Part shown: positions 15,303 to 42,681 of the stretch, piece by piece | Layout: each line of letters begins with the position of its first letter | Numbering within the stretch: the first letter of the stretch is position 1 | Source: a virus | Direction: 5' to 3' (one strand) | IMG/VR virus record: IMGVR_UViG_3300038441_000646 | Location: 1 to 48,970 of that record | DNA: 48,970 bases | The notes under the pieces: generated by a model | Database searches by the model: none | Seen by the model: only the letters and a program-made list of their open reading frames with translations | What the model was told of the DNA's origin: nothing | Program-made: the position numbers and the translations under genes

Positions 15303-16565
15303 ATGGTTTACTCAACAACCCAACAGAATGAGCATGTAAAAGAGCTACTTGATGCTCGCATTCAGGCTTCATTCCCGAACAATTATCAAACGCTCAAGCG
15401 CTTCAAGCGTGAGACGACGACCGAGGACATCACCGGACGCGGACGCGAGTTCGTGATCCTGCTTCAGGACAACGAATCTTACGGTTCGATCGCGGAAGGC
15501 GGAAACTTCCCGGCGGCCGGAGCCCTCGTTGAAGATCGTGCGGTTATCACGTTCCGCAACCAGTTCGCATCGTTCGACTTCACCGGCTCGGTTGAAGATC
15601 TTGCGACGAACAAGACGCTGCAGAACACGCTCACCCGCATCGTGAAGAACACGACGGAAGCGTTCGACGAGAAGCAGGAATTCTTCTTGTACGGCTCGGG
15701 CGACGGCGTGGTCGGACAGATCGACATCGCCAACACGAACGACATCACCGTTCTCAACAGCGTTACCTATCCGTATGGCTCGAACTTCATACGCAAGGGA
15801 CAGGTGTTGAATGCGTATGACGTTTCCGGTGCGGCCTATCGCTCAGGCGATATGGTCGTTTCGAGCGTCAACCGCTCGACAGACGTAGTTTCGGTCGATG
15901 CCGCCGCCGGTTCGATCGCGAACGACGACGACGACGTGTTCGTGTTTAAGTCATCGTATGGTGCTGCCCCCCTCGGGCTCAAGTACCACGTCGGCGACTC
16001 CGGTTCGTGGCTCGGGTTCACCCGTTCCTCGACTCCGGGTGTTAACTCGCTCGTCTATGACGCCGCGAGCGCGTCGATCGACTTCGACATCCTCGAAGCA
16101 GCGGAACAGCGTTCGGGCAACCTGCGTGGCGACGACGCTCCGGCTTGGGAGTTCGAATGGTTCATGCACCCGGCTCAGAAGCGTTATCTGAAGGCTCTCG
16201 CACGTTCGAGCGGCAACGTTCAGTTCAACGCGAATGTCGCGGGTAACGGCAAGATGGACCTCATTATGAAGGACGTTACGCCCGGCGGTAGCCGGATCAA
16301 CACGTCGTTCTGGTGCGCTCCGTCCGATGCTTACGGCCTGCGTATGGCTGACTGGTCGATCCAGGAAGTCGCACCGCGTCAGACCTACAAACATAACGAC
16401 GGCAACATCTTCATTCAGTCCCTCGGATCGTCCACGGTCTACAAGGACGCGAAAGAAGGCCGCGTGTACTGGCGCTACAACCCGCTCTGCAAGGCTCCGT
16501 ATGCTCAGGTTCGAATCAAGAATCTGAACTTCGCAGCGGCAGATTGCCGGCCGAAGCGTGCATAG
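15303..16565 (+). CDS. Major capsid protein (HK97-like fold)
   Basis: The 420-aa product is preceded by TAGGAG and follows the scaffold. Sequence features fit a phage major capsid protein: an N-terminal arm, a loop with SYGSIAEGGNFPAAG (E-loop region), DFTGSVEDLATN, a long helix (TRIVKNTTEAFDEKQEFFL; spine-helix position) and a hydrophobic SSYGAAPLGLKYHVGDSGSWLG segment. Codon use is highly regular, as in strongly expressed genes. It forms the icosahedral shell. An intrinsic terminator follows directly. Assignment is by context and composition, with moderate to high certainty. Confidence 0.85.
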   Translation: MVYSTTQQNEHVKELLDARIQASFPNNYQTLKRFKRETTTEDITGRGREFVILLQDNESYGSIAEGGNFPAAGALVEDRAVITFRNQFASFDFTGSVEDLATNKTLQNTLTRIVKNTTEAFDEKQEFFLYGSGDGVVGQIDIANTNDITVLNSVTYPYGSNFIRKGQVLNAYDVSGAAYRSGDMVVSSVNRSTDVVSVDAAAGSIANDDDDVFVFKSSYGAAPLGLKYHVGDSGSWLGFTRSSTPGVNSLVYDAASASIDFDILEAAEQRSGNLRGDDAPAWEFEWFMHPAQKRYLKALARSSGNVQFNANVAGNGKMDLIMKDVTPGGSRINTSFWCAPSDAYGLRMADWSIQEVAPRQTYKHNDGNIFIQSLGSSTVYKDAKEGRVYWRYNPLCKAPYAQVRIKNLNFAAADCRPKRA

Positions 16566-22921: not shown

Positions 22922-24595
22922 ATGGCGCTTCCGAACTATCTATCCGAGACGATGAGCGACAATCTGCTTGATCAGCGGATCCGCGAACAGATCGAATCTG
23001 TCTACGGAACGCTCGACCGGCGCCTTCAGATTCTCGAAGCTCCGATCATCGACCCCGTTACATTCTCATCCTCGCCGAATATGCTCCCGAATTCGCATCC
23101 CGAGTGGTCGACGCTCGCCTACGGGACGCCCGGAACGACACCGGCGACAGCGGGAGATACGAACTACGAGGCATATAACTGGCTGTACGAGACTGAAGCG
23201 ACGACCGATCTTTCAACGAATGCCGACCCTTTACTTGCATCGGGACATTCAGGCTTTGCGGGACTGAACGCAGACGCTCCGGTTTGGGACAGGGTGAATG
23301 GCGCTTTCAAACTCGGCAGCGAAACGACGCAGTACGACATTTCCTGTCCGCTACCGACCGATTTCGTATCGCCTGGGCAACTATTCCGCATCTACTTCGA
23401 GGCGTCATTAGCGGCGGCCGACACGGACATCAACGAAGCTCAGTTCTACTGCGGATTTTGGGATGACACGAGCGGTCAGGAAAAATGGATCGAAGGCTCG
23501 GCCTTCACGCCGACGATAGGCGTTTTCGGTGCAACAGGCTCGCGAACGCTCGAATATAAGATCCTCGCGGAAACCGATACGGGCAGCCAGATACTCTCAA
23601 CTGCCGTTTCCGTCTCGAACGCTCCGGCGGTACTTACGTCGGCCGATCACGTCCGCCTATTCTTTAGCGGAGCTCCGGGCTTCATCCGGTACGTTATCTA
23701 TCGAAAGGACGGCTCGAACTACTACCGCGTCGGCGAGATCCGCAATTCGATCGACCTTCAATTTTTCGACATCCTCGAAAGCGGGGATACGGTCGTTCCC
23801 GAGGCCGGCTATCCGAGCGTATCGGGTTCGGAGCCGCGGGCGTATGCGATCACAAGTACATTCGCTCCGGGAGCGGCGGGTGCCTTTGCCATCCATACGA
23901 TGACGATCCAGGTTCCACTGACCTATAACCGCTCGAACACAGGGAACCATCAGCAGTATTTCAGATTCGGGCTCTCGCAGTTTGTCGCATCCGGTTCTGC
24001 CCGAGAGGTCGTCATTCGGCGTATCTCGGTCGCGGAAGGGAACGGCCCATGGTCCCGTTCGCCTTTGGACTTGCAAGCGGCATCGGGACCGTCGATCTCC
24101 GCAACCAGCGCTCCACCGCCGCCGGGAGGCGGGGGTACACCAAGCGATCCGCCGCCGCCGGGAGGAGGAGGCCCGCCGTGCCTTACGCTCGATACTCCGG
24201 TACTGACGCCCGAAGGATTCAGATGTATCGGCGATCTCAAAAAAGACGATTGGGTGATGTGCGGGATGGCCTCGAAGCTGGTAAAGCCGCCTCGCATCGG
24301 TACCGTGCAATTCGTTTGGGAAATAGAATGCGATAACGGCTCGGTCGTCAGATGTTCGGACACTCATAAGTGGATACGCGATGTGAAGGACAAGGGTGGA
24401 CGATCAGCAAGATTGCTCCAGGTCGGGGATACGCTGCTCGGCGCGGATTTTCGGCCGACGAAGATCATCCGAAAGGACAAGATTCTCGGCCAAGTGCAAG
24501 TGGTCGACATCCAGCTTCCGGATCCGCATCTCTTCATCGCGTCCGGTCTGGTCAGCCATAACCGGAAATCGGACGACGAGGGAATCTACTCGTAG
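22922..24595 (+). CDS. Tail protein with C-terminal Hint (hedgehog/intein) domain
   Basis: The protein has 557 aa. Residues 1-390 are a structural, beta-rich region. Residues about 391-419 form a Pro/Gly linker with two PPPPGGGG copies. Residues 420-547 form a complete Hint domain: C420 in CLTLDTPVLTPEGF, a CSDTHKW (TxxH-like block), a VGDTLLGADF strand, and the end LFIASGLVSHN with H546-N547. Only ten residues follow (R548 first). Inteins need Cys/Ser/Thr after the HN; Arg there predicts no normal splicing but allows N-terminal thioester formation and Asn cleavage, as in bacterial intein-like domains. No homing endonuclease is inserted. Array 4 overlaps its stop. Confidence 0.8.
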   Translation: MALPNYLSETMSDNLLDQRIREQIESVYGTLDRRLQILEAPIIDPVTFSSSPNMLPNSHPEWSTLAYGTPGTTPATAGDTNYEAYNWLYETEATTDLSTNADPLLASGHSGFAGLNADAPVWDRVNGAFKLGSETTQYDISCPLPTDFVSPGQLFRIYFEASLAAADTDINEAQFYCGFWDDTSGQEKWIEGSAFTPTIGVFGATGSRTLEYKILAETDTGSQILSTAVSVSNAPAVLTSADHVRLFFSGAPGFIRYVIYRKDGSNYYRVGEIRNSIDLQFFDILESGDTVVPEAGYPSVSGSEPRAYAITSTFAPGAAGAFAIHTMTIQVPLTYNRSNTGNHQQYFRFGLSQFVASGSAREVVIRRISVAEGNGPWSRSPLDLQAASGPSISATSAPPPPGGGGTPSDPPPPGGGGPPCLTLDTPVLTPEGFRCIGDLKKDDWVMCGMASKLVKPPRIGTVQFVWEIECDNGSVVRCSDTHKWIRDVKDKGGRSARLLQVGDTLLGADFRPTKIIRKDKILGQVQVVDIQLPDPHLFIASGLVSHNRKSDDEGIYS

Positions 24596-24623
24596 ATACG
24601 TAGACGTATTTACACGTATACAA
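24592..24623 (+). promoter_or_regulatory. GTAGAC array 4, before the internal virion operon
   Basis: Four hexamers follow an 8-bp step: GTAGAT 24592, GTAGAC 24600, ATTTAC 24608, GTATAC 24616. The array ends 3-5 nt before ATG 24627 and no SD is present. The last unit, TATACA, could act as a -10 element for a near-leaderless transcript. It overlaps the last codon of the Hint protein. Confidence 0.55.
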
Positions 24624-24626
24624 GAT

Positions 24627-25862: not shown

Positions 25863-26495
25863 ATGGCCGCAAATGTAAACGTTACCGTTACCGGAACCCT
25901 CGTCGATGGCGCGGGTGCCGTCGTCACTTCCGCTATCGTCAAGGCTCAACGCTCCGACGTATCGCTTCTTCAGTCTGCAACCCAAAACACTGCCGATACC
26001 GCCGAAGCGACATCGAACTCGTCGACTGGCATCTTCTCACTCACGCTCAAGGGATACGACCTTATGGCCGTGACTCACAAGGTCACGCTTCCCGACGGTC
26101 GGTATTTCTACCTCACGCTTCCCGCGAACGCAAAATCTGTCGGCCTCGGCAAGATCACTTGTGGCAGGACTCCCGGTCGCGGCCCGAAGGACATCACCGC
26201 CCTTGTCACGGCCGGGCTGAAGTTCATCGGTCAGGATCTCGCGTCGGCCGCTGCACTTCCGGAGCCGACCTGCGATGTGCACGTCGTCACAGGAACAACC
26301 ACGATCACCTCGATCCTGGCAACGAACTTCCCCGTCGGTAAGGTGCTGATCCTGATCACTTCGGGATCGGTCACTATCAATGATGGCAACAACCTGTCAC
26401 TGACCGGAAACCTGTCGATGACAGCCAACGATACGCTCGCTCTCGTCTTTGACGGCACGAACTTCTCGCAGTTGGCGGCACCGCCGGCGATCTAG
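25863..26495 (+). CDS. Appendage protein with Ig-like N-terminus, 210 aa
   Basis: The protein is beta-rich and Thr/Ser/Val-dominated. Residues 1-100 look like an Ig-like or carboxypeptidase-regulatory fold (NVTVTGTLVDGAGAVVTSAIVKA, then SSTGIFSLTLKG). Residues 130-210 have short repetitive strands (TSGSVTINDGNNLSLTGNLSMT), resembling the head or hat domains of phage fibres. It is probably a receptor-binding or decoration protein of the virion. Four related-style appendage genes sit in tandem from here to 30207. Confidence 0.6.
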   Translation: MAANVNVTVTGTLVDGAGAVVTSAIVKAQRSDVSLLQSATQNTADTAEATSNSSTGIFSLTLKGYDLMAVTHKVTLPDGRYFYLTLPANAKSVGLGKITCGRTPGRGPKDITALVTAGLKFIGQDLASAAALPEPTCDVHVVTGTTTITSILATNFPVGKVLILITSGSVTINDGNNLSLTGNLSMTANDTLALVFDGTNFSQLAAPPAI

Positions 26496-26499
26496 TCGT

Positions 26500-26548
26500 A
26501 GCTTTTGGGGTTTCGGGGCGTTCACCTTAAACGCCCCGCTTCAAAGCT
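26500..26548 (+). promoter_or_regulatory. Nested hairpin directly before ATG 26549
   Basis: AGCTTT (26500-26505) pairs with AAAGCT (26543-26548) outside, and GGGGCGTT (26515-26522) with AACGCCCC (26530-26537) inside. There is no T-tract, so it is not a clear terminator. It ends at the base before the start codon and covers the SD position, suggesting translational control or transcript protection. Confidence 0.5.
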
Positions 26549-26869
26549 ATGGCTAAGAGCGTCACTTCTAAAAGTTCGATCAATGGTTGGGCAAACTTTC
26601 TTACGCTTGCGCGAGCGGCGGGCTATACAGGCTCGCAGGTCGTTAAGGACGGAACTATCGTCAGCCTCGGAGCGACGGCCGCGTATATCCACATCACAGA
26701 AGTCGGGAACGCAAACCCAGGAACTGCCGCAAACGGCGTTCCGATCGGATCGACGGCTTCAACCGCACCAAGCACGGTCTTCCGAGTTCCGGAAGGGACG
26801 GACCTCGCTTGTCTCTACATCAACACGGCAGGAGCCCAGGACATCACGTACAGCTTTACCGGAAAGTAA
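26549..26869 (+). CDS. Small beta-rich virion protein, 106 aa
   Basis: The protein is Thr/Ala/Ser/Gly-rich, without charged helices (NGWANFLTLARAAGYTGSQVV, TAAYIHITEVGNANPGTA). It resembles small fibre-tip or capsid-decoration proteins. It is immediately followed by the 694-aa appendage gene without any gap, and likely forms part of the same structure. No family is recognised. Confidence 0.55.
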   Translation: MAKSVTSKSSINGWANFLTLARAAGYTGSQVVKDGTIVSLGATAAYIHITEVGNANPGTAANGVPIGSTASTAPSTVFRVPEGTDLACLYINTAGAQDITYSFTGK

Positions 26870-28954
26870 ATGCAGTTAACAATCCCAACATTCCCGATCC
26901 CGAACTGGCAGAAGGGCGGTGCAAGCGTCACGCTCCGTATCTATGCCGATGTGACGTTCAAATCCTCTGACGACGTTATCATCCAGCGCGGCGATCCTCG
27001 CGGCGCGGGGAACTGGTACAAAGAGGTCGCGTGTTCTGTCTCGGGAACGACGATAACCGTCCCCGAGTTCACGATAGACTCAACGACCGATTCAAGCGAT
27101 CGCAACGCGACCTATACGGGCGTGCTATTCGACGCGAATGGCGTTCGGCGGGATACGTTCTTTGGCGCCTTCCGAATCCCTCACAACTTTGGAGCAAGCG
27201 TCGAATGGCAGGCTATCTATTCCTATAACGCGGCGGTTCGAAGCATTCTGCCTTATGCCTATCCGAACACGGATCAGGTGGTCGATATCGTCGAATCGAT
27301 GCTGTCGAACCTTCAGCCGGAAGATACCGACCTGACCGCGATCGCGGCGATAGACTCCGCACAGTCAGGCGTTATCGCATCGGACGGTGCGGGGTGGATA
27401 TACAAGTCTTACTCGGCCCTCAAATCAGCTTTGAGTATTGCGGTCGCGGACGTATCGGGGCTTGTGTCCGCACTCTCAGGCAAACAAGACACTTTAATTT
27501 CCGGCACAAGCCTAAAGACCGTTGATGGGCAGTCATTGCTTGGAAGCGGGGATGTTGCCGTCGGCGGAACCGTTATCGGTAAAGGTTCACTGTTCTTCGA
27601 TGCCACCGTTCATCAGAACATCAACGCGGGCGTTTTCTTCCGCTCACTGGTTGATTACTCACATTGTTTTTGGGAATTGTGGGTACGCCCTAGCCAGCAG
27701 AACGGAACGTGGGGCGGCTACGCGATAGCGGATACGGAAGGTGGGGCTCATTGCATTCTTTTCGGCGTCACGATGTCGGGTTCGATCTATCACGTCACCG
27801 GCAACATGCACGACGGCACGACGCTCAAGTCGTTCGCTTTTGATCTCCCGCAACCGGCTGGGTATTGGACACACATAGCAATCGGTTGGGATGGTGCTCA
27901 CATTCTCGGATGGATCGACGGCTTTCTTGTCTATAAAGACGCCTGGGCTCCAACCTCTCGCAAGAATCCTGGCGGCAACAACGAAGTTCTCTACTTCGGC
28001 GGCTCAGACCATAACAATTTTTGGGGAAACATCGCACAGGTTCGCGGGTACGAAGGATATGGCCGCTGCCGCTATGTAACCGATTTCGCTCCCGAGAGGT
28101 ATTTCCGTCCGTTGTCATACGACGCCTTCAGCACGCCGCCGCAGTTTGATCTACCGAACCTGCTGCACAACTATCAGGCAGGCGAGCAGACGATCTACCT
28201 GGACGCAAGCAGTGGATTCGAGGGAATGCTCCACCACGGCGTTCCACAGGCACAAGACAGCGTGCTTAGTGCGGGAGAAGTTACGGCTCCGTTCATTGAC
28301 AACGACCTGCCGACATTCGACCCCGAGGATATTATCTACGGCGACTATGTTCCGACGCCACCAGCCACACCGGTCGGAGCTATTGTTTGGGACTCGTTCT
28401 CTCGGGCGAATGTCAACTATCTGACAACCCGCGAACCGACGTGGGGAAACACCGAAGCCGGAAGCGCGGGAGTGCAAACCTGGACTGCTTTGGACGGCAG
28501 TTCGTTCCCGACTATTACGGGAGCGATCGTCAACGGTGTCGCGTTTATCTACAACAGCTTCACCGGCGGGACGGTTGCGACCGGAACGCTGACTCAGGAT
28601 GTCCGCGTTGACCGCATACCGGAGGCATACGGCGAGACTGGACTATATATCCGATACAAGGACGCCAACGATTACTACTTTGTCCAAGGGACCGATACAA
28701 ACGTTCACGTCGAAAAGCGCGAGGCGGGTGTGACGACTTCAGTTGATTACACCGTTTCGGCGGGATGGACGACGCTGAGAGCGACCGCAAGCGGCACGTC
28801 ATTCAACTTCTACGTCGGAGATGCCACGGAAGGCACATTCACGCTTGCGGGATCTTTTACCGGCACAAACACAGCAGGAGCGACCCGTGCCGGACTTGGA
28901 CGCTACGGCGGTAATAAGTTGGTCTACTCGTTCGACAACTTTTTAGTTAAATAA
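26870..28954 (+). CDS. Large tail-fibre/appendage protein with LamG-like domains
   Basis: The protein has 694 aa. The N-terminal part (1-105) matches a common fibre-attachment style (IPTFPIPNWQKGGASVTLRIYA). A shaft motif follows with LSGKQDTLISGTSLKTVDGQ and LLGSGDVAVGG (about 204-230), frequent in phage tail fibres. Residues 235-400 look like a LamG/concanavalin-A domain (SHCFWELWVRPSQQNGTWGG; WTHIAIGWDGAHILGWIDG). Residues 500-694 contain a second jelly-roll unit. LamG-type domains bind carbohydrate, so this is a candidate receptor-binding protein. Confidence 0.75.
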   Translation: MQLTIPTFPIPNWQKGGASVTLRIYADVTFKSSDDVIIQRGDPRGAGNWYKEVACSVSGTTITVPEFTIDSTTDSSDRNATYTGVLFDANGVRRDTFFGAFRIPHNFGASVEWQAIYSYNAAVRSILPYAYPNTDQVVDIVESMLSNLQPEDTDLTAIAAIDSAQSGVIASDGAGWIYKSYSALKSALSIAVADVSGLVSALSGKQDTLISGTSLKTVDGQSLLGSGDVAVGGTVIGKGSLFFDATVHQNINAGVFFRSLVDYSHCFWELWVRPSQQNGTWGGYAIADTEGGAHCILFGVTMSGSIYHVTGNMHDGTTLKSFAFDLPQPAGYWTHIAIGWDGAHILGWIDGFLVYKDAWAPTSRKNPGGNNEVLYFGGSDHNNFWGNIAQVRGYEGYGRCRYVTDFAPERYFRPLSYDAFSTPPQFDLPNLLHNYQAGEQTIYLDASSGFEGMLHHGVPQAQDSVLSAGEVTAPFIDNDLPTFDPEDIIYGDYVPTPPATPVGAIVWDSFSRANVNYLTTREPTWGNTEAGSAGVQTWTALDGSSFPTITGAIVNGVAFIYNSFTGGTVATGTLTQDVRVDRIPEAYGETGLYIRYKDANDYYFVQGTDTNVHVEKREAGVTTSVDYTVSAGWTTLRATASGTSFNFYVGDATEGTFTLAGSFTGTNTAGATRAGLGRYGGNKLVYSFDNFLVK

Positions 28955-28956
28955 AC

Positions 28957-30207
28957 ATGGCATTCCCAACAGCATATCGGGCCTCAAACGGCAGAGAAAA
29001 GTCACGGCGGACAGTCACTGGTGACACTGCTCTCGCGCCGACCGACAATGGCGGACAGATCATCGTGAACTCAGCATCGGCAGTTGAGATCACAGTGCCG
29101 CCTCTCTTAGTGATTGGCTTCCATTGCCAGGTCATTCGATACGGAACCGGAACCGTCGAATTTGTCGAGGCGTCGACGACGATCGAAAGCCCATCAGGGT
29201 TCTATGCGATCGATAAGCGATACGGAAAGGTGGAGATCGTCTCACCCTTGCCCGACGTGTTCATTTTAAGCGGAGAACTCTTCTACGACCGCGAGGCACC
29301 CACTGCCCCTGTCCTTGATCCTGTGACGATCGACAGTGACACGGAGATCACAATGGTCTGGTCGGCTGCAACTGACAACGTCGGGGTAACGAATTACCAG
29401 ACGCGTATTGACGGCGGAGCCTGGGTCGATCGCGGAAACATCCTCACCTATCAGTACACGGGACTTACTGGATCGACGTCATACGATTTTGAAGTGCGGG
29501 CTAACGATGCGTCCGAGAACTTTTCAGTGCCGTCTAACCTCGAATCCGGCACGACAGACGCCCCAGTTAATCACATCGTCGTTGAGTATGACGCTGAGCT
29601 TGAGGCTTACGCGAACAATGACTCGATGGGGCAGCTTACCGACCAGTCGGGGAATGCTTACCATGCGGTGCAGGCCACCGGATCCCTACAATTCCAGTAC
29701 AAGACCGACGACGGCGACTACTACAATTGCGTCTCCGCAGGCACCGGCCAGAACAAGAACTACGTCGTTCCGAACTACACGGCGGACATCGCTGATCGGG
29801 CGCAGATGTTTGCGGTCGTCAAGTGCAATGTCGTCAGCAGTAAATTATGGCGACTTCTTGGTGAGGGTGATCAGGCCGCCGCATACACCGAGACGTTCAG
29901 TAATAACGTCTACGAGCCCTTCGGTTCCGAAACTCGCAAAGACAACAAAGACCCGGCTCCGAACTTCGACACGGGCTGGGTAGTGTACCGCGTCGTGTCC
30001 AGGGATAACTTCTACGAGATGTCAGTGAACGGGGTGGTTTTCTTCACGACGACCACGAATACGTTCTCAAAGGACACGGTGAATCCATTTGAGGTCGGAC
30101 AGTCAGCAGGCTCCGGGTGCGATTACCGGTTGAAGTATCTCGCGATCTTAGATGACAACTCGACAGACCTGACCTCGGCACTGATGACCCGATTCGGAAT
30201 TACGTAA
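28957..30207 (+). CDS. Appendage protein with FN3 and LamG-like domains
   Basis: The 416-aa protein has an N-terminal beta domain (1-108). An FN3 domain follows, about residues 110-205 (APTAPVLDP, ITMVWSAATDNVGVTNYQ, TGLTGSTSYDFEVRANDASEN). The C-terminal domain (210-416) is LamG/jelly-roll-like (LTDQSGNAYHAVQAT; WVVYRVVSRDNFYEMSVNGVV). Such domains occur in phage surface proteins that contact host polysaccharide. The gene follows the previous appendage by 2 nt. Confidence 0.75.
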   Translation: MAFPTAYRASNGREKSRRTVTGDTALAPTDNGGQIIVNSASAVEITVPPLLVIGFHCQVIRYGTGTVEFVEASTTIESPSGFYAIDKRYGKVEIVSPLPDVFILSGELFYDREAPTAPVLDPVTIDSDTEITMVWSAATDNVGVTNYQTRIDGGAWVDRGNILTYQYTGLTGSTSYDFEVRANDASENFSVPSNLESGTTDAPVNHIVVEYDAELEAYANNDSMGQLTDQSGNAYHAVQATGSLQFQYKTDDGDYYNCVSAGTGQNKNYVVPNYTADIADRAQMFAVVKCNVVSSKLWRLLGEGDQAAAYTETFSNNVYEPFGSETRKDNKDPAPNFDTGWVVYRVVSRDNFYEMSVNGVVFFTTTTNTFSKDTVNPFEVGQSAGSGCDYRLKYLAILDDNSTDLTSALMTRFGIT

Positions 30208-31273: not shown

Positions 31274-34200
31274 ATGGCAAAGGGTGACGAAAACGACGAT
31301 CTTCTGAAATGGGCTGACAGCCTGCCGAAAGCAGAACCTACGACCCCGACAATGGCGGTAAAGCCGTCGGGGAAGTCGATGAAGGATCTCGCGAAAGGTT
31401 CGGGGTTTACCATCACATCGACGACGGGAGGGAAGCATAATACCGGTTCGCTTCACTACTCCGGTCGAGCGATCGATGTTCGCACTCGCGATAAGACGCC
31501 CGATCAGATCGATGCGTTCAAGCGTCAAATGGAAGGCGAAGGTTTTCGTGTGCGCGATGAAAGGACACGCCCGCAAGGTCAGAAGGTTTGGGGCGGTCCG
31601 CATCTGCATGTTGAGGATCGCGGTGGCCGCATATCGCCGACAAAGCCTGTCGAGACTCCGCAGATCGACGAGAAAAGCATTTGGGATGATGTTGACAGCA
31701 TCCTAACCCAGCCGCAGCCCGCGACGATCCAACAGCCGCCTATTCCGTCAACCGTGCCGTCGATGGCGACCCCGCCGCCGACAATGAAGGCTCCAATAGC
31801 ACCTATCGGCTCGAAACCGTTCTCGGACGGGATCACGATCGCCTCGCCTGTTCCGACGCCGGTGAGTGATCAGTTGAAGCAGGCTGTACGTGGGCGGTTG
31901 CAGCAGATCGCGACTCCGGGCATCGCTCAGGCTCCGGATGGTATGCCGCCGATGGCTCCGACCGCCGTTCCGCCCGTATCCGCAAAACAGCGGATGGCCT
32001 TAGATGAAGGCGAGTATCAGAAATGGCTCGCCGATAATCAGTTTACGGACGCTCCGGGCAGCCGTGAATCGTTCCTTGTGAACAAGCAGGCGGAGGCTCA
32101 GGCTGGACAGGTGCAATACGAACAGCCTCAGATGGCGCAACAGCCGCCGAAGGCAACACAGGCATCCCCGACCGCTCAAGCGCCGGCGACACAGACGCCG
32201 ACCGCTCGCGTTAATTGGGCTTCCGGTACTGGTAAATCTGCCAAGACGTTCGCTCTCGACGAAGCCGCGAGTCAGATATCCGCTCAGCTTGGAGTCGATT
32301 ACGACACGGTTCGGACGTTCTTCGACCAGAAAGGCGTTCAGGGACTGACCGACGACGTTGCGGAACGGCGGCGAAAAGACCGTCTCGAAACCATCATCGA
32401 CGTAGACGACAATGCCGTTCGCCAGATCAAGGCGATGCAGGAGCAGGCTGACAAGGCGAAACGCCGTCAGTCTACTCAGGAGGCCACAGCCGAGAATCAG
32501 GTGCGTCAGTACATCGCTGACGGCGAGATCGATTCGGTCGCTCAACTACTTGCGGCGAAGGATGTCGGTGTTAAGGACATCAAAGGCCGTTCGATCGACG
32601 AGATCATCCAAGAGGAACGGGATGCGTTTAAGCGGTTCCGCGACACGCTGCAGAACGACCCGAATGAATACAACCGGATTCTCCAATCGGAGCAAGCGAG
32701 ACTATCGGCGGGTGAATCGCCCGAGAAGATCGTCCAAGAGCGCTGGGCAAAAGATAACCAGGCTCGCATCGACGCTGTTCGTCGTGAGATTGCCGAGAAG
32801 CGGTTAGGCTCGTTCGTTGGCCGCGAGAAAGAACAGAAGCGGATCGCTGACACCTACGGGGAAAACCCGCTTATCGGTAACAACGCTCGTCCAATGGCGC
32901 GACCGGCCGAGTTCGTACTGAACATCGCCCGCGAGTTCGCCAAACTGCCCGGACAGGCCGCAAATCTTGTCGGTATGGGTGCGGATGCGATGAGTGCCGT
33001 CGGGATCGATCCGAAAGACAATCCGTTCCTGCAATTCGGCGAAGGATGGAAGGCTAAAATTGACGCGTCAGCCAACAAGGACCTGAAAGACGAGATGATC
33101 GTCGGCGATGTCTCAAGGGGCTTGGCTCAGTTGATGCAGCAGACAATCCTCGTTCCGTTTACAGGCGGAGCGTCGATTCTTCTGCCGGCGGCACAGGCCG
33201 CAGAGTCGCAGTACCTTGAGGCGGCAAAAGATGGCGCCGGACGAAACGCCCGCATCGGTTCTGCTCTGGTCGGGGCAATTATGGCCGTTCCCGACGCTTG
33301 GCTCGAATTCCAGTTTTTGAAAGGTCTAAGCCCTGCCGCTAAGGTCGGCTTTCTCGAGAATCTGAGCAAAGACCTGTTTGAAGGTTTGGCCTCGAAGATG
33401 TCCAAGGACGAGGCGAAGCAGGCAACGATCGCCGCAGTCGGCGAGTTTATCGCGAAAGCTCCGGTCGGCTACTTCGGAGAGAAGTATCAGGAGCAGATCG
33501 AGGACATCGGCAACAAGGCGTTTGCAAAGGTCACCTATAAAGACAAATTGACTTGGAAGGACGTATTTCAGGCGTCCGAGCGTGAACAACAGGGCTACGA
33601 GTCCGCCGGGCTGGTCGGCATCTTCGGCGCGGGCGGCGGTTCGATTACTAACTACGTTAATCGCTTGTCGGACGCCGAATTGATGAACGCTACGCCGGTT
33701 CTCGACGAAGCTCTCAAGAAAGGAACCATCACGCCCGAGCAGCGGAATGCGGTCGATGCGGCTGTATTCGCCGAAGCTCAGAAACGGAAAATCAGCCTTG
33801 AACCGATCAAAGTTCAGGACAAAAAAGGCAATCAATTCACCGTCGTCGAAGATCAAGGCGAGAAGTTAAAAGTAAAGGACGAAAAGGGCAGTATCTCGGT
33901 CAGGAACAAAGACCGGTTAACACCAATCAATGAGAAACAAACGGAAGTTCCGGCACAGTCCGCATCTGTGGAGCCGCCTGCATTGGCGAAGGATAAACCT
34001 GTTGAAAGCGCAGATGCGGTTCCGGGAGAAGCTAAACCGCCGATGAAACGCCCTGGCGGGGACTTGACGCAAAACAGACCTATCCCCGCAGTCGACCGTG
34101 ACGAAGAAACTGCGTCTTGGGTTATCAAGAACAAAGAAACGGGCGAGACTGTGATGGAAACGTTCGACCCTAAGAAGGTCGAGGCTCTGAATACTGACAA

Positions 34201-37200
34201 GTACGAGGCCGTACCGATTCAGGAGCATCTTGGCAATCTCAATAAGGAGATAGCCACAAAACCCGAATCCGTCCGCTACCACGAAAAGCGACCGAAGGGA
34301 ATGGTCGACGAGGCTCCGTTGCGTCCTGAGACTTTGACGGGAGCGAAGAATCGTATCGGTGAGCTTGAGACTGAGGTTCAGGAAGAACGCCGGAAAGCCG
34401 ACACGAACCCGCTGACGGGATTGGGCTCGAAAAACGCCTGGGCGAAGGCTAAGGACCGGATCGAAGCCGACACAAATCAGGAGATCGTTTCTTTCGACGT
34501 GAACCGGATGAAAGAGGCGAACGATACGACTTCGCACGATACGGTTGACGACAAGGTTCTGAAGCGTCTTGGCGAGGTCACGCAGCAGGTTCTCGAAAAG
34601 AACGGTATCGAGACTCGAAACGCATTCACTCCGGGTGGTGACGAACTATACGTCGCTCTCCCGAAAGGAAGGGCCGCACAGATCCGCGACGAGATCGAGA
34701 AAGCCTTTGGCACGGTCGAACTGACGGTTGAAAAGGACTATACGAATCAGCGAACGGGCGAGACGTTCAAGAAGGGCGACCGCATACCCGTAACCCTCTC
34801 GGGCGAATTCGGTCAGACGGTTGCCGAAGCTGAAAAGGGACTCGGAACGCGAAAGGACGCGAGCAAGAAGGCGAATCCGGTGAAGCGGGCGACGACGGCG
34901 AAAGAGCCGTGGCAGATGACCGCGAAGGAATGGGATGCCGAATTTGAGAAAGGCAAACCGAGTTCATCGGGATCGCACTCTGTAACCGCTGCCGCCAATA
35001 TCGGCAAGTCTCAAAAGGGTGCAGAAAATGCGTTTGATGCGCGGCGGAAGCGTATCGAATTTCTCAAGATGGGATTACCCGACTTCGACGCCGAAACGGG
35101 ACTCCCGTGGAAGGACGGCCCGAAAACAGGCTTGCAGTCATCGGCTCGCCATCGTCAGGTAATCGAACACGCCATCAAGCAGGGGCTGCCCGTACCCGCC
35201 GAAGTGCTTGCGGACTATCCCGACCTTGCGCCAAAGAAATCCGCCAAGCAGAGGCTTGCGGAGAAGGCGGAGCCGAAAGGTAAAAAGCAGGCTCAAACCG
35301 TCGCGGACGTTCCCGTTCTGCCGAAATCCGAACAGGTCGATCCCGACGCAGACCCGACGGCTAAAGAGGCTCGGGAGAGTGTTAAGGACGAGAAGATCAA
35401 TCCGCGCACCGGACTTACGAAAACGCAGACGGAATATCTCGCGAAGGAACTTCAAGACCTTGCCCACGACGCCTTGAAGAAAGGCATCGGTCACGATGAT
35501 GCGGGGTTCGAGCAAATGCTGTTGCAGTGGAAGCCCGACGGAATGCCGGAGTCTGTTTTCGGGCGGACCGGAATCGAGATGGACGAGTCTATCAAGGTTC
35601 CCGGTGACGGTTCGTTCAAGGTTCATAGTGTTGAAGCGGCGAATCGTCTTCATCAGAAGATCACGGGCAAGCCGATTGAGGGATTTGATAAAGCATCGAA
35701 AGCATCCATTCCGAGTTTCCGTCCGACGTTCGGACCGAGCACGGCGGCACAGGATGACCAGATGAATCTTGCCCTTCGGTTGTACGGCACACCGGAGCGG
35801 GCAATCGCATTCCTGACCGAGCAACGAGAACAACTTTCAGAAAAAGAGGACGAAAAGGCTCGGAAAGACCTTGATTCGGTCATTGCAAAACTAAACTCGG
35901 AACTTGGCCAAACCGTCTCGTATAAAGGTGTCGGTGAGCCATTAACCTCCGTAGGGCGGGAAGCAAAAGCGACCGCTGACACGGAGATTGCGAAACGACG
36001 TGAAGGGGCGACCGAGCGAGTCGCCGCTGCGTATCAAGAAGTTGTAGACAGGCTGAAGCCTGACATTACGCAGATCCGCAAGTTTCTGAAAGAAGAACTA
36101 CCGAAGATTCGTAAGCATCAGGCGGAGCTCCACACTCTCGGATCTCAGAATTACCGTGGCGGGCTCGCCGCGATCAAACGCCTGATCGAGAGTCGCGAGA
36201 ATGCTTTTATCCGGTACCAAACCAAGTTTGATGACGAGATCGCGGAACAACTGAAGGACGTGCAGAACGGGATGAATGCGGCGATCGGGTATAATCCCGA
36301 AGTCCGCAAACTGAAACTGCCGGAAAACGCTTCACTTCAAGAGATTGCGAGTGCGGTAAAGACTCAGTGGCAGACGTGGCGAGATGTGATCGACGGCGAA
36401 TCTAGCTACGAGCAAACCAAAAAGATTCGGGATCGTGAAAGCGTATTACGTCCGGCTAATACTGTGCTTTCCGAAACGGTCAAGCCCGACCCCACCCCCA
36501 CCAAAACCTCAGCCCGTCAAAAGCTCGCGGAGAAGGTGGAAAAGCCGAAAGCGGAAAAGGCTTCGGAGCCATCCAGTGCTCAATCGAAATTAACCGACCT
36601 GCAAAAGCAGTTGGAAACGGAAACCCATAACCCAACGGTGCATGACCTGAAACGGCGCATCGCTATTCAGGAGAACATTGTTGCGTACAACTTGCCGTTT
36701 GAGATCGACCCTGAAGCGGACTTTCCGCTCGAAGCGACTGGTAGGGCGTTTCAGTGGAATTCGATGGACCCCGACCGAAGGGCTCGCGGCGTCCAGAGAG
36801 ATTACGTCGAGGTCATCGGCGAGACTTACAAGAAACTTGCCCCGCTCGCAAAGACGCCGGAGCAGCAGGCGATCCTAGATGCTGAGATACAGCGTTTTCG
36901 TGACGGCTATATCCAGAAGGAGCGAGCCGTACTGTCCGCGACAGGTAAAACCGCTAGCTCGATGGTTACTGGTCCCGCGAGGTTCCCGGTCGAAAAGAAT
37001 CGAAGGGCATTAGATCGTGAAAGGGCAGTGTCCGACGAAGCTCTCGACTGGCGAAAGAGAGCGGTCGCATCCATCGAAAAGAAATTGCTTGACGCTCGCA
37101 CCGATGAAGTAAAGACTGACGAACGCTGGGGCGACCTGAAGGCGAAGATCGATCGCGGCTTTACCGCGAACATCGCTGGCGTAATCGAGCGGTTGGCCGA

Positions 37201-40200
37201 TAACGGAGAAGTTGAACTTGTAAACCGAGCCCTTGACTATATGCGGTCGATGGCGAAACCGCCGTTTACGCAACGCCATAAGGTTTGGGGATTCGGAGAA
37301 CGTGCAGAAAAGGCTGCGGCTAAAGTAAAACCGACCGGCTCGGGCGTTATTGCCGAATTCGACGGCGGAACCGTTGTTAATAACCGTGATGCCGAGCGGG
37401 TGCAGATACTTTTCGACGAGAGGCCATCACCGGAAGTTATCACGATCTTGAAAAAGAGCGGATGGCGATGGAGTCCGTCTAATAGTGCTTGGCAGCGGCA
37501 GAACACGCAAAACGGACTGATGAACGTCGATTACGTTCTGAAGAAAGCGGGTTTTGAGGTTCGTAAGCCCGAGTCCGGCAACGTCTCGCTTCAGATGGCC
37601 GCTGACGGTGATTACGAGGCTGCGATTCGAGACGCCGCAGAAGGGACGCTGACCGATCCTGTCTTTGTGGCTCAGACGAGCCCAATACTTGCCAAAATTG
37701 GCTTACCATCGCTGCCGATAGTGGTCACTCCAAAGGTTCTCGAAAAGACCTTTCACGGCAAGCATTCGGACAAAGGGATCACGCCGGACAATCTGATACA
37801 GATGCGGCCGGATATGGCTCGACCGATCGCGGTATTGAATTCGGACAATGCGGATGCTCCGGCGGGAAGCGTCTTATTGGTTTTGCCGACGAAAACGGCT
37901 CAAGGGGAATTTCTGACGGTTGCGATACACCCGAACCAGAAGATGGGACGATGGGAAGTGAATCGGATCGCAAGCATCCATTCGCGCAATCTTTTACATT
38001 CGTTTGGTTCGTGGGGTAATAAGGGACTATTCCGCTATCTGGACAAAAAACAAAGCCGTCGATTGGCTACGACCTACGGCTCTAATTTCGCCTCGGTGGT
38101 TCAGTCAATCAACGACTCTACCGACAACTTACTCTCCGAGGATGATTTTGTCAATAACAATGAATCCCTTCAAATGGAAGCCAGCGAGACGAACATCCAA
38201 CGCTTCAAGGACGTTCAATACGCTCACACTCAGACCATCCTCGAAGGTGCGAAGTCTGAGGTCAAGGTAGTCGCGGGCGCGACCGTCCTCGAACTCAACG
38301 AAGAGGCCGCGGAACTTGCCCGACGGCTCGAAAGTTCGCTTAGAAACGCGGACACGTCGCCGTTCTTCGGTACAACGCACACCGACCGGACACTGAAAGG
38401 TCTAGCCGAGGAAGCGAAGAAATGGGCGCTTCATTACGAGAACAACTCGGGCTATACGACCGAACAGGTTGCTTCCCTTCGGAAACTAGCCGACGACTTC
38501 ACCGAACTCGCAAAAGAGGCTCACGGTGTCGCCTACGTGTTCGACTTTGCGATCCCGCACGAGACGCATCATAAACTCGTTTTGGATGCCCTGGGCGGTA
38601 AGAAGTTTCCGCGAAAGGCGATCGAGAAGCTAAAGGCTCTCGACATCTGGAACGACAAAGGCTTGCAGCGTATTCTCCCGACCGGAGAGAAGCGGCTATT
38701 CCATCTCGACTACGGGAAAGTCTCGCAAGAGACTAAGGCTCTCGAACTTGCCGCGCAGCTTGAGACGGGCGAGATCGTTCATCCTGACAAAGATAAGTTC
38801 CTTGAGATCTTCGCAGATGGTATCTTGGACGTGACGACCGAACTGGATCCGGTCAAATTTGCGAGGGTAATTCAATATGCCAACACTCAGACCAGCGACA
38901 CCGGAAGAGATCGAGCAGAGCGAACAGACGCAGACGAAAACGAACGCGCTGATGGACGTGATACAGCGTCGGGCGAAGGAGCGCGGGATCGAACTGACAC
39001 CACCGCCGAGCGGGATGGTGGACGAACCGCCGATGACGCCAACTCCGACGGACGACAAAAAGTAAGTCAGACCCCGAAATCCCTTCGTGGTAAGGCCGAT
39101 ATTCCTGTCGACGATCGCACCTATACCGGCGTTACCAACAAAGGCCAGCAGGCATTCTCCGATGCTCAGATGGATAAGGGTGTCGAAGAGGCTGACCGCT
39201 GGTTCAACGAGAACGCCGACGACAACAACCTCAATGGTGGATCGACCGCCGTTGTCGGCCTAAACCTACTTAATCACTACGCCAAGACGCGACAGTTCAA
39301 AGAGATGAACGCCGTCGCGGATAAGCTCGTTCCGATGGTCACGCAGGCCGCTCAGACGGTGCAGGCGATGGCTGTTGTATCCGCATTCAATCCTCAGATG
39401 GCGGCGGCATACGCTGCAAAGGTCAAAAAGCAGAAGCAGGGTAAAGACCTCACGCCAGCAGAAGCGGAAAAGGCCGAACGGATAGCTCAGAATCTATCCG
39501 AAACAGCACAAGCCGAAGGTCTCTCCGAAGCCGCTTTGAAGCAGGCCGAGCAGTTCATTAAAGAACTCGAAAAAGAAGTCGAGCAGGCGAACACTTCGAT
39601 CCAGACGCTTGAAGATCAGAACAAAACGATCAAGGTCAATCTCGAAGAGGCTCGGAAGGTCGTCCGCTCACAAAAGGCGCAGATCGCCCGTTTGACGAAC
39701 GATAAACCGCGAACTCCGAAAGCGGCGGTCGTCAAAGACCTTCGCGCTCGGAAAGACGACATTCTCACGAAACTCGCGGAGAAGTATGGAACGCCGAGTT
39801 TGCAGATGGTGGCTCCGTCGGGTTCACTTCAGATGGCTGCTGACAGTTCACTCGATCCCGACCTGATCGACTGGGCAACGCTCACACTCGGAGAGAATTG
39901 GTCGACCATATCGGTCGGTCAGTTCAAAAATCTCGCAAACCAGATCACGAATGGTGCTTTATCGGAAAACGAGATCAACGAACTTCACGCTTCGGCAGTT
40001 GAAGCTCTACGTTCGGACCGAACTCAGTCCGACGACCAGAAATCGGCATTCAAGACCCGCTCGGAACATCTGCGAGCCGCCCGTAAGTTCCGTAAAGGGC
40101 AGATGCCGAACATCGACAAGACCGCTGCAGCGATAATGCGTCAAGGTGTCGAGGGGAACTATTCGGACGATGCCATCATCTTCGCTCTCGCTCGGAAGAA

Positions 40201-42358
40201 ACACGTGAAGCCCGAAGATGCGATGAACGAGTATAGGCAGCGAACCGGAGAGAAACCGTCGAAGGATACGATGGCTGAGGCTCACCAGCTTATTCTCGAT
40301 ACGAAACGGGCGATCGCTTCCGACCGGATGCAGGCCCGCTCCGACGTGACGCTCACCAAAGAGGATATGGACGCGATCCGCGAGGAACGGCGTGTCAATC
40401 GTGCGTCCGGTGCGAGGGAGCAGAAAATCGCGAATGCTTTCTACGAAGGGCTCGCGAAAACGCCGTATGAGGTTTCCCTTGAATCCGTCGTCAATCTTCG
40501 CCGTGCCAACCTTCTGACGGGCGTTAAGACGCATTTGCGGAACGTCGTCAGCAACGCGGGCTTTGCCGCCTCCGAAGAAGTCAGCCGGCCACTGGCGTGG
40601 CTCGCGGACGCTGCTGTGTCAGGACTGACCGGGGAGCGTACCGTTCACGGAATGTCACCGAAGGCCGTTTACAAAGCGTTTGAGTCACTTGTCCGCGAAG
40701 ATGACACCTTCAAGAACATCAACCGCGAATCCGGGCTGAGGATGGCGAAGCAGATACTTGTCCACGGAGCCACGTTCGACGAACTCGCAAAGCAGCAGCA
40801 CTCACGGTCGATCCTCGGAGAGAAGATCGGTAAACCGGGTGCGGCTCTCGATGCTTACGTCAACAAGGTCTTCGACGCCCTCGGAGCGGAAGATGCTGTT
40901 TTCAAGACCTATGCTTTCCGTCGATCGCTTGAAGAACAAGCAAAGACGATGACGGCGGATAAGGACGAGCGACTAAAACTAATCCTAAATCCGACGAACA
41001 CGATGCAGCAGATCGCATCGGACTACGCCGACTTCGCAACCTTCACGAACGACAATATCTTGTCGAACCTCATTCGGTCGGCAAAGGCCGGTGTTGCGCA
41101 TCAGGGTAAGGGCGGGCAGGCGGTCAAGGCTGTATTCGAAACGGTCGTGCCGTATGACCGAACGCCGACGAACATCTTTATCCGAGTTGTCGAGCATTCG
41201 CCTCTCGGACTCGTATCAGCCGGCGCGAAACTCAAGAATCTCAAACAGGAGCCGTCGAAAGCGTTCCGGAACAAATACCGTGCGGCTATCGAACTGGATC
41301 TTAATTCGACCGATGATTTTCTTGCCCTACCGAGGCCGCGGCAACGCAAGTTGATCGACGAAGGATTGCAGAAGGTTTGGACCCGTCAGCAGCAACAGGA
41401 CTTTGCTCGGACGTTCGGACGGGCATCGCTGGGAACGGGTACTTTCGCCCTCGGATTCTTCCTTGCCGCCGCTGGCCTACTTACCGGTTCGATGTCGCCC
41501 GAGGACGACGACCGCGAAGAGACGAACGAATTCTTCAAACGTCGCGAGATGGGCGTTGAGAATCGATCTTTACTTATCCCCGGTGTCGGGCGGTTCGTTC
41601 TGACCGATGATCCGCTATCTAAAGTCTTAGCGGCCGGAGCCACGGCTTACGAGCAAACCAAGGCCGATCGTGGAGCTCCCGTCGCTTCTGCTTGGAACGG
41701 AGCGAAGGAGGTCGCGGAAGATGCGATGTTCGAGCAGCCGCTTGTCGGCGGCGTGAATAGCCTTTACAAGCAGATCAAAGGAGCGAAGTTCGGAGAGTTT
41801 GCGGGTTCGTTAGTTGGAACGACGCTTATCCCGACCTTTGTAAACGACATTGGCGAGGTCGCGGACGCAAAGGCTCGTACCGGCTCGGGTTATCGTCCGG
41901 GCGAAAAGCGTTCGATATTGAATACCGATTATCAGGCGCGGGGATTCAAGAACTCGCTTCTGAAGCGCGTACCGATCGCTCGAAACTATGCCGTTGACGA
42001 GGCTCAGGGCGTTGTTCCGCCAGAGGTTCGTGGGGGTGTGTTGCGTCGAATGGTTCGTGCAATCGATCTTTTCAACACGCGCCCGCCGGTCGAATATGAA
42101 CCGCTGACCGCTCCTGAGAATTATCAGGACTTTATGAAGTCTGGCGACTTCAAGAAGATGGGGACGGACGATATCGTGACGATCATTCGATACGACAAGG
42201 CCGACGGTAAGGATACGAAGGAAATGGAGGGTGCTTTGAGAAAGAAGGTCGAAAACGCTCGTAAATCGGGAACCTTCACGGCAGATGAAGCGAGGCGGGT
42301 AAATGAAGTTCTCGGAACTAATTATCAGCCCGACGATTCAAAAGCGAAAAGAAAATAG
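31274..42358 (+). CDS. Giant polyvalent internal virion protein (M15, GGDEF-like, MuF-C-like, HExxH domains)
   Basis: This 3694-aa protein lies where T7-like phages encode gp16-like ejected proteins. Visible parts: M15 peptidase-like domain, residues about 40-120 (SLHYSGRAIDV with H61/D68, then HLH 110-112); hydrophobic segments about 616-680; GGDEF-like domain about 1030-1210 (DTNPLTGL at 1043, SFDVNRMKEAND, GGDEL 1121-1125, degenerate end); WSPS-WQRQ domain about 2020-2100; MuF-C-like barrel about 2113-2295 (PIVVTPKVLEK, AIHPN); zincin-like region with HETHH 2429-2433; a D/R/T linker; coiled coil about 2755-2816; and a C-terminal region with LLTGVKTHLRNVVSNAG and a hydrophobic segment about 3389-3409. 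SLQM motifs recur at 2105, 2298, 2842 and 2851. Probably packed in the virion and injected; enzymatic activities are inferred from motifs. Confidence 0.85.
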   Translation: MAKGDENDDLLKWADSLPKAEPTTPTMAVKPSGKSMKDLAKGSGFTITSTTGGKHNTGSLHYSGRAIDVRTRDKTPDQIDAFKRQMEGEGFRVRDERTRPQGQKVWGGPHLHVEDRGGRISPTKPVETPQIDEKSIWDDVDSILTQPQPATIQQPPIPSTVPSMATPPPTMKAPIAPIGSKPFSDGITIASPVPTPVSDQLKQAVRGRLQQIATPGIAQAPDGMPPMAPTAVPPVSAKQRMALDEGEYQKWLADNQFTDAPGSRESFLVNKQAEAQAGQVQYEQPQMAQQPPKATQASPTAQAPATQTPTARVNWASGTGKSAKTFALDEAASQISAQLGVDYDTVRTFFDQKGVQGLTDDVAERRRKDRLETIIDVDDNAVRQIKAMQEQADKAKRRQSTQEATAENQVRQYIADGEIDSVAQLLAAKDVGVKDIKGRSIDEIIQEERDAFKRFRDTLQNDPNEYNRILQSEQARLSAGESPEKIVQERWAKDNQARIDAVRREIAEKRLGSFVGREKEQKRIADTYGENPLIGNNARPMARPAEFVLNIAREFAKLPGQAANLVGMGADAMSAVGIDPKDNPFLQFGEGWKAKIDASANKDLKDEMIVGDVSRGLAQLMQQTILVPFTGGASILLPAAQAAESQYLEAAKDGAGRNARIGSALVGAIMAVPDAWLEFQFLKGLSPAAKVGFLENLSKDLFEGLASKMSKDEAKQATIAAVGEFIAKAPVGYFGEKYQEQIEDIGNKAFAKVTYKDKLTWKDVFQASEREQQGYESAGLVGIFGAGGGSITNYVNRLSDAELMNATPVLDEALKKGTITPEQRNAVDAAVFAEAQKRKISLEPIKVQDKKGNQFTVVEDQGEKLKVKDEKGSISVRNKDRLTPINEKQTEVPAQSASVEPPALAKDKPVESADAVPGEAKPPMKRPGGDLTQNRPIPAVDRDEETASWVIKNKETGETVMETFDPKKVEALNTDKYEAVPIQEHLGNLNKEIATKPESVRYHEKRPKGMVDEAPLRPETLTGAKNRIGELETEVQEERRKADTNPLTGLGSKNAWAKAKDRIEADTNQEIVSFDVNRMKEANDTTSHDTVDDKVLKRLGEVTQQVLEKNGIETRNAFTPGGDELYVALPKGRAAQIRDEIEKAFGTVELTVEKDYTNQRTGETFKKGDRIPVTLSGEFGQTVAEAEKGLGTRKDASKKANPVKRATTAKEPWQMTAKEWDAEFEKGKPSSSGSHSVTAAANIGKSQKGAENAFDARRKRIEFLKMGLPDFDAETGLPWKDGPKTGLQSSARHRQVIEHAIKQGLPVPAEVLADYPDLAPKKSAKQRLAEKAEPKGKKQAQTVADVPVLPKSEQVDPDADPTAKEARESVKDEKINPRTGLTKTQTEYLAKELQDLAHDALKKGIGHDDAGFEQMLLQWKPDGMPESVFGRTGIEMDESIKVPGDGSFKVHSVEAANRLHQKITGKPIEGFDKASKASIPSFRPTFGPSTAAQDDQMNLALRLYGTPERAIAFLTEQREQLSEKEDEKARKDLDSVIAKLNSELGQTVSYKGVGEPLTSVGREAKATADTEIAKRREGATERVAAAYQEVVDRLKPDITQIRKFLKEELPKIRKHQAELHTLGSQNYRGGLAAIKRLIESRENAFIRYQTKFDDEIAEQLKDVQNGMNAAIGYNPEVRKLKLPENASLQEIASAVKTQWQTWRDVIDGESSYEQTKKIRDRESVLRPANTVLSETVKPDPTPTKTSARQKLAEKVEKPKAEKASEPSSAQSKLTDLQKQLETETHNPTVHDLKRRIAIQENIVAYNLPFEIDPEADFPLEATGRAFQWNSMDPDRRARGVQRDYVEVIGETYKKLAPLAKTPEQQAILDAEIQRFRDGYIQKERAVLSATGKTASSMVTGPARFPVEKNRRALDRERAVSDEALDWRKRAVASIEKKLLDARTDEVKTDERWGDLKAKIDRGFTANIAGVIERLADNGEVELVNRALDYMRSMAKPPFTQRHKVWGFGERAEKAAAKVKPTGSGVIAEFDGGTVVNNRDAERVQILFDERPSPEVITILKKSGWRWSPSNSAWQRQNTQNGLMNVDYVLKKAGFEVRKPESGNVSLQMAADGDYEAAIRDAAEGTLTDPVFVAQTSPILAKIGLPSLPIVVTPKVLEKTFHGKHSDKGITPDNLIQMRPDMARPIAVLNSDNADAPAGSVLLVLPTKTAQGEFLTVAIHPNQKMGRWEVNRIASIHSRNLLHSFGSWGNKGLFRYLDKKQSRRLATTYGSNFASVVQSINDSTDNLLSEDDFVNNNESLQMEASETNIQRFKDVQYAHTQTILEGAKSEVKVVAGATVLELNEEAAELARRLESSLRNADTSPFFGTTHTDRTLKGLAEEAKKWALHYENNSGYTTEQVASLRKLADDFTELAKEAHGVAYVFDFAIPHETHHKLVLDALGGKKFPRKAIEKLKALDIWNDKGLQRILPTGEKRLFHLDYGKVSQETKALELAAQLETGEIVHPDKDKFLEIFADGILDVTTELDPVKFARVIQYANTQTSDTGRDRAERTDADENERADGRDTASGEGARDRTDTTAERDGGRTADDANSDGRQKVSQTPKSLRGKADIPVDDRTYTGVTNKGQQAFSDAQMDKGVEEADRWFNENADDNNLNGGSTAVVGLNLLNHYAKTRQFKEMNAVADKLVPMVTQAAQTVQAMAVVSAFNPQMAAAYAAKVKKQKQGKDLTPAEAEKAERIAQNLSETAQAEGLSEAALKQAEQFIKELEKEVEQANTSIQTLEDQNKTIKVNLEEARKVVRSQKAQIARLTNDKPRTPKAAVVKDLRARKDDILTKLAEKYGTPSLQMVAPSGSLQMAADSSLDPDLIDWATLTLGENWSTISVGQFKNLANQITNGALSENEINELHASAVEALRSDRTQSDDQKSAFKTRSEHLRAARKFRKGQMPNIDKTAAAIMRQGVEGNYSDDAIIFALARKKHVKPEDAMNEYRQRTGEKPSKDTMAEAHQLILDTKRAIASDRMQARSDVTLTKEDMDAIREERRVNRASGAREQKIANAFYEGLAKTPYEVSLESVVNLRRANLLTGVKTHLRNVVSNAGFAASEEVSRPLAWLADAAVSGLTGERTVHGMSPKAVYKAFESLVREDDTFKNINRESGLRMAKQILVHGATFDELAKQQHSRSILGEKIGKPGAALDAYVNKVFDALGAEDAVFKTYAFRRSLEEQAKTMTADKDERLKLILNPTNTMQQIASDYADFATFTNDNILSNLIRSAKAGVAHQGKGGQAVKAVFETVVPYDRTPTNIFIRVVEHSPLGLVSAGAKLKNLKQEPSKAFRNKYRAAIELDLNSTDDFLALPRPRQRKLIDEGLQKVWTRQQQQDFARTFGRASLGTGTFALGFFLAAAGLLTGSMSPEDDDREETNEFFKRREMGVENRSLLIPGVGRFVLTDDPLSKVLAAGATAYEQTKADRGAPVASAWNGAKEVAEDAMFEQPLVGGVNSLYKQIKGAKFGEFAGSLVGTTLIPTFVNDIGEVADAKARTGSGYRPGEKRSILNTDYQARGFKNSLLKRVPIARNYAVDEAQGVVPPEVRGGVLRRMVRAIDLFNTRPPVEYEPLTAPENYQDFMKSGDFKKMGTDDIVTIIRYDKADGKDTKEMEGALRKKVENARKSGTFTADEARRVNEVLGTNYQPDDSKAKRK
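38877..39065 (+). CDS. Nested ORF within the giant gene (+1 frame), 62 aa
   Basis: An SD-like GAGGG (38863-38867) lies 9 nt before ATG 38877. The frame encodes a well-composed acidic helical peptide (MPTLRPATPEEIEQSEQTQT; ALMDVIQRRAKERGIELTPP) and stops at TAA 39063-39065. The host frame over the same bases is a low-complexity D/R/T/E/G linker. This fits overprinting of a small gene onto a linker, or alternatively a pair of compensating frame errors. No membrane helix, so not a lysis peptide. Function unknown. Confidence 0.45.
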   Translation: MPTLRPATPEEIEQSEQTQTKTNALMDVIQRRAKERGIELTPPPSGMVDEPPMTPTPTDDKK

Positions 42359-42656: not shown

Positions 42657-42681
42657 ATGGTAGAATGTGCGGGAGGTCGGG

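Follow-up and report, generated by a model that had tools for sequence, protein, structure and literature searches.

The window analyzed here, the 48,970 bases of one uncultured virus record, encodes a 557-aa presumed tail protein that ends in a complete Hint domain (residues 420-547), carried behind a flexible Pro/Gly linker, with a full catalytic set minus the +1 nucleophile. Based on its sequence features and those of its relatives, we interpret this domain, with a probability of about 0.52, as a splicing-incompetent autoprocessing cap derived from a mini-intein, which would cleave itself at one or both ends. Extein ligation would not occur; in a single-turnover reaction, Cys420 would form a thioester with the end of the linker that is hydrolyzed to free the structural part, and/or Asn547 would cyclize and cut off the ten-residue tail. 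We infer that either bond may be cut and that the Hint may cap a virion appendage protein and be removed as the virion assembles.

Inteins are usually regarded as parasites of conserved enzymes. Here, Hints recur in phage tail proteins, at their end or in their flexible start, with the chemistry kept and the residue for a traceless exit dropped, and a Hint that cuts or conjugates in this position would be a virion maturation device. This recurrence is of more interest than the single case in the window. No papers on splicing-dead Hints in phage tail proteins were found in the open-licence literature (subscription journals were outside the scope), and the literature searched describes no processed product of such a protein. 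According to reviews, bacterial intein-like (BIL) domains and Hints without a +1 nucleophile mainly give cleavage products, with minor splicing (PMC4031507; PMC7664689).

The tail gene and its Hint domain

22922-24595 (+): 557-aa ORF, consisting of structural part, linker, C-terminal Hint, and 10-residue tail
22922-24112 (+): N-terminal part, residues 1-397, presumed virion (tail) protein from its gene position
24113-24178 (+): linker PPPPGGGG-TPSD-PPPPGGGG-PP, residues 398-419
24179-24562 (+): Hint (mini-intein-like) domain, residues 420-547, from sequence match, AlphaFold model, and superposition
24179-24181 (+): Cys420, Hint position 1, nucleophile of the N-S acyl shift, from alignment and superposition
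24356-24367 (+): block B S479-D-T-H482 with catalytic His482, from alignment
24506-24508 (+): block F Asp529, from sequence and alignment with gp41-1
24557-24562 (+): block G His546-Asn547, Asn cyclization
24563-24592 (+): C-terminal tail RKSDDEGIYS, with Arg548 and not Cys/Ser/Thr at +1
24593-24595 (+): stop codon of the 557-aa ORF
4941-6959: terminase-like gene (phrog_38)
15303-16565: major-head-protein-like gene (phrog_14242)
25863-28954: appendage genes with LamG and depolymerase-C-like matches
31274-42358: 3694-aa ORF with a MuF C-terminal domain at 2161-2262
42667-43266: LysM/endolysin-like gene
47705-48811: integrase

The 557-aa protein is labeled as tail-type because of its gene position and neighbors, as the ORF sits between the major-head-protein-like gene and the appendage genes (25863-30207). 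Family profile searches with the N-terminal 400 residues gave no family match, single-sequence structure prediction of this part gave no usable fold (pLDDT 37), and no close relative of it was found in viral contigs. No promoter or terminator signals of note were found around the ORF. Elsewhere in the window, the 3694-aa ORF also shows short matches to phage primase and unknown families, and a Glycosyltransferase 61 gene (46553-47563, - strand), an unusual cargo at a phage end, adjoins the integrase. The frame of the gene following the tail gene is open upstream (24396-24626, + strand) and overlaps the 3' half of the Hint in another frame, likely by chance. A frameshift restoring a C-extein was judged unlikely from the sequence, since the overlapping +1 frame gives Gly after Asn and hence no nucleophile.

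The last 138 residues of the ORF, from Cys420 onward, comprise the Hint and the tail before the stop codon. An earlier note on this DNA had described residues 420-547 as a complete minimal Hint domain with Cys420 at its start and an HN end, and sequence search, AlphaFold modeling, and superposition agree with this description. The best match of a single-sequence phmmer search was the splicing gp41-1 intein, aligned over the whole Hint (E = 6.5e-5), followed by inteins of phage terminases, helicase loaders, and ribonucleotide reductases. The NCBIfam intein C-terminal model scores 16.7 bits with the domain alone (cut-off 15.6) and 14.9 bits with the whole protein, and Pfam Intein_splicing is detected below its threshold (18.2, cut-off 35.8). 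The AlphaFold model of the Hint, based on a 50-sequence alignment, has a pLDDT of 92.8 and a pTM of 0.85, with the tail RKSDDEGIYS disordered. Foldseek matches this model to gp41-1 (E = 8.5e-9, TM 0.81) as well as to BIL domains, class-3 inteins, and the Hedgehog Hint, and VIA-align superposes it on gp41-1 (6riz) with Z 20.8 and an rmsd of 1.4 A over 123 residues, and on the Clostridium BIL (Z 19.4), Tetrahymena BIL2 (Z 19.4), and the Hedgehog Hint (Z 18.1). The alignment with Hint residues 1-128 spans each of the four structures from end to end, and the assignment of residues 420-547 as a full Hint is far beyond chance. The catalytic set is complete (Cys420, S-x-x-H482, Asp529, and His546-Asn547).

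Canonical splicing is not expected, in agreement with the earlier note: the place of the +1 nucleophile is taken by Arg548, which makes the ordinary transesterification step impossible, and the protein ends ten residues after Asn547. The two PPPPGGGG copies of the linker are likewise present as described (residues 398-405, 24113-24136; residues 410-417, 24149-24172), followed by PP and Cys420. They are no evidence for processing, since the octapeptide is a common spacer and no hallmark of Hints: about 4 of the 120 PPPPGGGG stretches listed from viral contigs lead into Hint-like sequence, which rules the octapeptide out as a class marker. The residue at -1 is Pro419, and in several model inteins a Pro in this place makes the N-S acyl shift slower. 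This weakens the thioester route for the window's protein and argues for slow N-terminal cleavage, and therefore C-terminal cleavage or no reaction are kept as options.

In trees, the window's Hint has a long branch and clusters with the splicing inteins of phages (gp41-1, SCTP-2, and Lak), whether or not gp41-1 is included, and apart from the K-type non-splicing class. Because of this grouping, a decaying intein is a serious rival, even if we consider it unlikely: a gp41-1-like phage mini-intein would have landed near the end of a tail gene, lost its +1 residue and C-extein, and persisted as inert baggage behind a flexible linker. The gp41-1 intein as best single-sequence match and Pro at -1 are consistent with decay, and the protein is unique, with no close relative of its Hint in viral contigs or genome contigs that could reveal selection. 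The tree grouping, the absence of close homologs, and Pro at -1 also count against the autoprocessing cap. Decay, on the other hand, is at odds with the catalytic residues, all of which are intact in the window's Hint, and with the distribution of comparable Hints in other phages.

Hint domains in phage structural proteins

Scans of contigs from uncultured viruses revealed dozens of phage structural proteins in which a linker rich in Gly/Pro leads into a Hint, often at the C-terminus. HN is kept in them, the +1 nucleophile is absent, and Lys is the most frequent residue at +1. Alignment A1, in its entirety, was too variable to serve as a locus query. In viral contigs, at least 57 stretches fit a DNA pattern that encodes four glycines, then two unspecified residues and C[LF]xxDT. 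The majority belong to Hint proteins, among them gpJ-like tail-tip proteins whose Gly-rich regions enclose an N-terminal Hint, proteins that end in a Hint plus a short tail, and proteins whose C-terminal Hint stops before HN. Two patterns for the C-terminal end separate enzyme inteins (HN-Ser etc.) from HN-Lys structural proteins, many of which terminate exactly at that Lys. HN-Arg (CGN codons) was rejected as a signature, as its single match listed did not resemble a Hint protein, compared with at least 87 for HN-Lys. The host polypeptides match the gpJ/central tail fibre, phage-tail_3, and tail protein phrog_2048 families, with further matches to tail fibres with Peptidase_S74, fn3, collagen, and LamG. 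A C-terminal Hint is also part of the family phrog_38766 itself ('virion structural protein'). The recurrence of the C-terminal layout, the short tails, and the missing +1 nucleophile in unrelated phages argues against simple decay.

A pattern for the start alone (C...MADG) provided a sample free of bias at the C-terminal end. Among the matches listed, exact-start Hints with an HN end, clustered at 60% identity, lack C/S/T at +1 in 20 of 21 cases, and Lys occupies +1 in 14 of 20, compared with 9.8% at +2 to +8 (p = 1.6e-10); with 45% clustering, Lys is at +1 in 7 of 12 of the matches listed (p = 1e-5). Loci with Lys at +1 include L388, L391, L397, L418, L430, L461, and L493, among others, and L190, L230, and L244. 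The catalytic residues are retained despite the missing +1 nucleophile: within the matches listed, loci picked by their C-terminal end alone have Cys1 (40/47) and block-B T/S-x-x-H (34/47), and those picked by their start alone have block-B T-x-x-H (35/36 and 24/24).

The arrangement of these Hints varies. Gly-rich sequence flanks both sides of a Hint near the N-terminus of gpJ-like tail-tip proteins (L009, L012, L020, L025, L047, L397, and L461), in which +1 is Gly, Ala, or Lys, and L025 and L047 carry two Hints. Tandem Hints in a single polypeptide occur in L187, L391, L434, L439, L593, and others, some beginning directly after the preceding HN-Arg or HN-Lys. The C-terminal Hints of L015, L021, L034, L045, and L390 start with CCF or CF and end with ...FYANGVLVY just before the position of HN, and only N-terminal chemistry would be possible for them. 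In L443 (563-2512) and L457 (325-2727), the Hint is followed by a C-terminal region resembling tail-fibre chaperones, with Pfam Peptidase_S74 in L457 and S74-like sequence in L443.

The strong enrichment of Lys at +1 in the non-splicing class bears on an alternative in which an external amine or thiol, or a nearby Lys, attacks the Cys420 thioester and ties the tail protein by a covalent bond to a virion partner or a surface; the earlier note had raised attack by an external amine or thiol and linkage to a partner. Amine transfer is a real chemical option, because BIL2 of Tetrahymena, a Hint without a +1 nucleophile, reportedly forms an isopeptide bond with a lysine side chain (PMC8616854). BIL2 is also the best PDB match of the class profile (E = 5e-28, followed by the Clostridium BIL with 1.6e-26 and gp41-1 with 7.6e-20), and the window's protein has Lys at +2. 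However, the +1 residue of BIL2 is Met, so its acceptor Lys is not at +1 and the phage +1 Lys is ruled out as its counterpart; moreover, the window's protein has Pro at -1, partner and product are lacking, and plain hydrolysis needs fewer assumptions, which makes acyl transfer quite improbable here. A general form, in which phages use splicing-dead Hints as acyl-transfer caps whose Cys1 thioester passes the tail protein on to an amine, supplied by Lys at +1/+2 or by a partner protein, and so gives conjugated virion appendages, is a long shot; if true, the +1 Lys enrichment would be an acceptor signature, and the appendages would be isopeptide-linked or otherwise conjugated. Hints similar to the phage +1-Lys Hints occur in bacterial genomes, where +1 Lys is widespread, and it is accordingly not a phage-only trait.

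Cultured phages with and without the Hint

Starting from the L457 Hint, about 60 records were reached, from jumbo phages and related ones. In Erwinia phage Y3, the protein Y3_110 is annotated as 'putative phage tail protein, contains intein domain', and its orthologs from Erwinia, Dickeya AD1, Yersinia fHe-Yen9-02, Alcaligenes Afa-NA1, and NCTB phages keep Cys1, T-x-x-H, Asp, and HN, followed by tails of 7-12 residues. The +1 residue is Thr in Erwinia and Dickeya AD1, Val in Yersinia fHe-Yen9-02, Met in Alcaligenes Afa-NA1, and Ala in NCTB. Conservation of this layout across the Erwinia, Yersinia, Alcaligenes, and NCTB orthologs is a further argument against decay. Phage NCTB also has a small separate 'intein domain protein' (L661, 2440-2901) with the end VHNKVD, adjoining a tail gene with its own C-terminal Hint. 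The orthologs of Dickeya JA29 and JA13 have 324 residues and no Hint, and end with ...ARNPK, 7-8 residues before the position of Cys1; thus, the structural part of the family exists without the Hint. The Dickeya jumbo-phage paper contains no mass spectrometry or tail-protein text. As the same gene occurs in cultured phages with the Hint (Erwinia Y3) and without it (Dickeya JA29), the role of the Hint is directly testable.

The dN/dS of the Erwinia-phage Hints is about 0.07-0.24, with many pairs saturated at silent sites and a value of 0.074 for the least saturated pair; the Hint in this cultured family is under purifying selection. Such selection alone is no proof of a non-splicing role because +1 is Thr in these phages, and it could favor splicing of the 10-residue C-extein; the Yersinia, Alcaligenes, and NCTB orthologs provide the better argument. 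The cultured orthologs with their 10-residue C-extein and Thr at +1, together with the low-level splicing of type A BILs without a side-chain nucleophile (PMC4031507), also bring up non-canonical splicing, in which the freed alpha-amine would attack, as proposed for type A BILs, and the linker would be joined to all or part of the ten-residue tail. For the window's protein this is very improbable, given that the reaction is reported as minor, that +1 is Arg, and that the short tail lacks conservation between families. The autoprocessing cap, by comparison, is made more plausible by the relatives, since they keep the catalytic residues, the Erwinia Hint is under purifying selection, and the Hint-less orthologs end near the junction. 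The putative self-processing proposed in the earlier note is strengthened in this respect.

Comparison with known systems

The window's Hint belongs to the Hint superfamily by its fold, Cys at position 1, and block A/B/F motifs. The profile comparison with BIL and Hint families suggested in the earlier note supports this membership. Scored against one model of the non-splicing set and another of the splicing set, the domain fares about equally.

With gp41-1 and other class 1 phage mini-inteins, its nearest relatives in the trees (subject to caution over the long branch), it shares the fold, the minimal size without an endonuclease, Cys1, the block B His, the block F Asp, and the His-Asn end. 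Unlike them, it has neither a +1 nucleophile nor a real in-frame C-extein, and it ends a structural protein rather than lying inside a conserved enzyme.

With type A BILs (Clostridium thermocellum, 2lwy; Tetrahymena BUBL1 BIL2, 6y75), it shares the HN end without a +1 nucleophile (HN-RKSDDEGIYS) and the variable flanks, whereas its sequence does not appear to be closer to BILs than to splicing inteins and its host is a protein of a phage virion region. We read it as BIL-like in what is missing, and not necessarily as a BIL by descent. Type B BILs have no HN end, in contrast to the HN at 546-547; L015, L021, L034, and L045, with their ...LVY ends, differ from the window's Hint in this respect.

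The Y3_110 family of jumbo phages has the same order of structural part, C-terminal Hint, and short tail (7-12 residues), but its structural part is collagen-like, its Hint is of a different subfamily, and most members have Thr at +1. No sequence relation was found between its structural parts and that of the window's protein. The Hedgehog Hint is also C-terminal and cleaves off the upstream domain through a Cys thioester, whereas the window's Hint has an Asn end and is followed by ten residues in place of a sterol-recognition region. We read the profile and tree placements to mean that tail proteins acquired Hints more than once, the one in the window probably having come from the mini-intein side.
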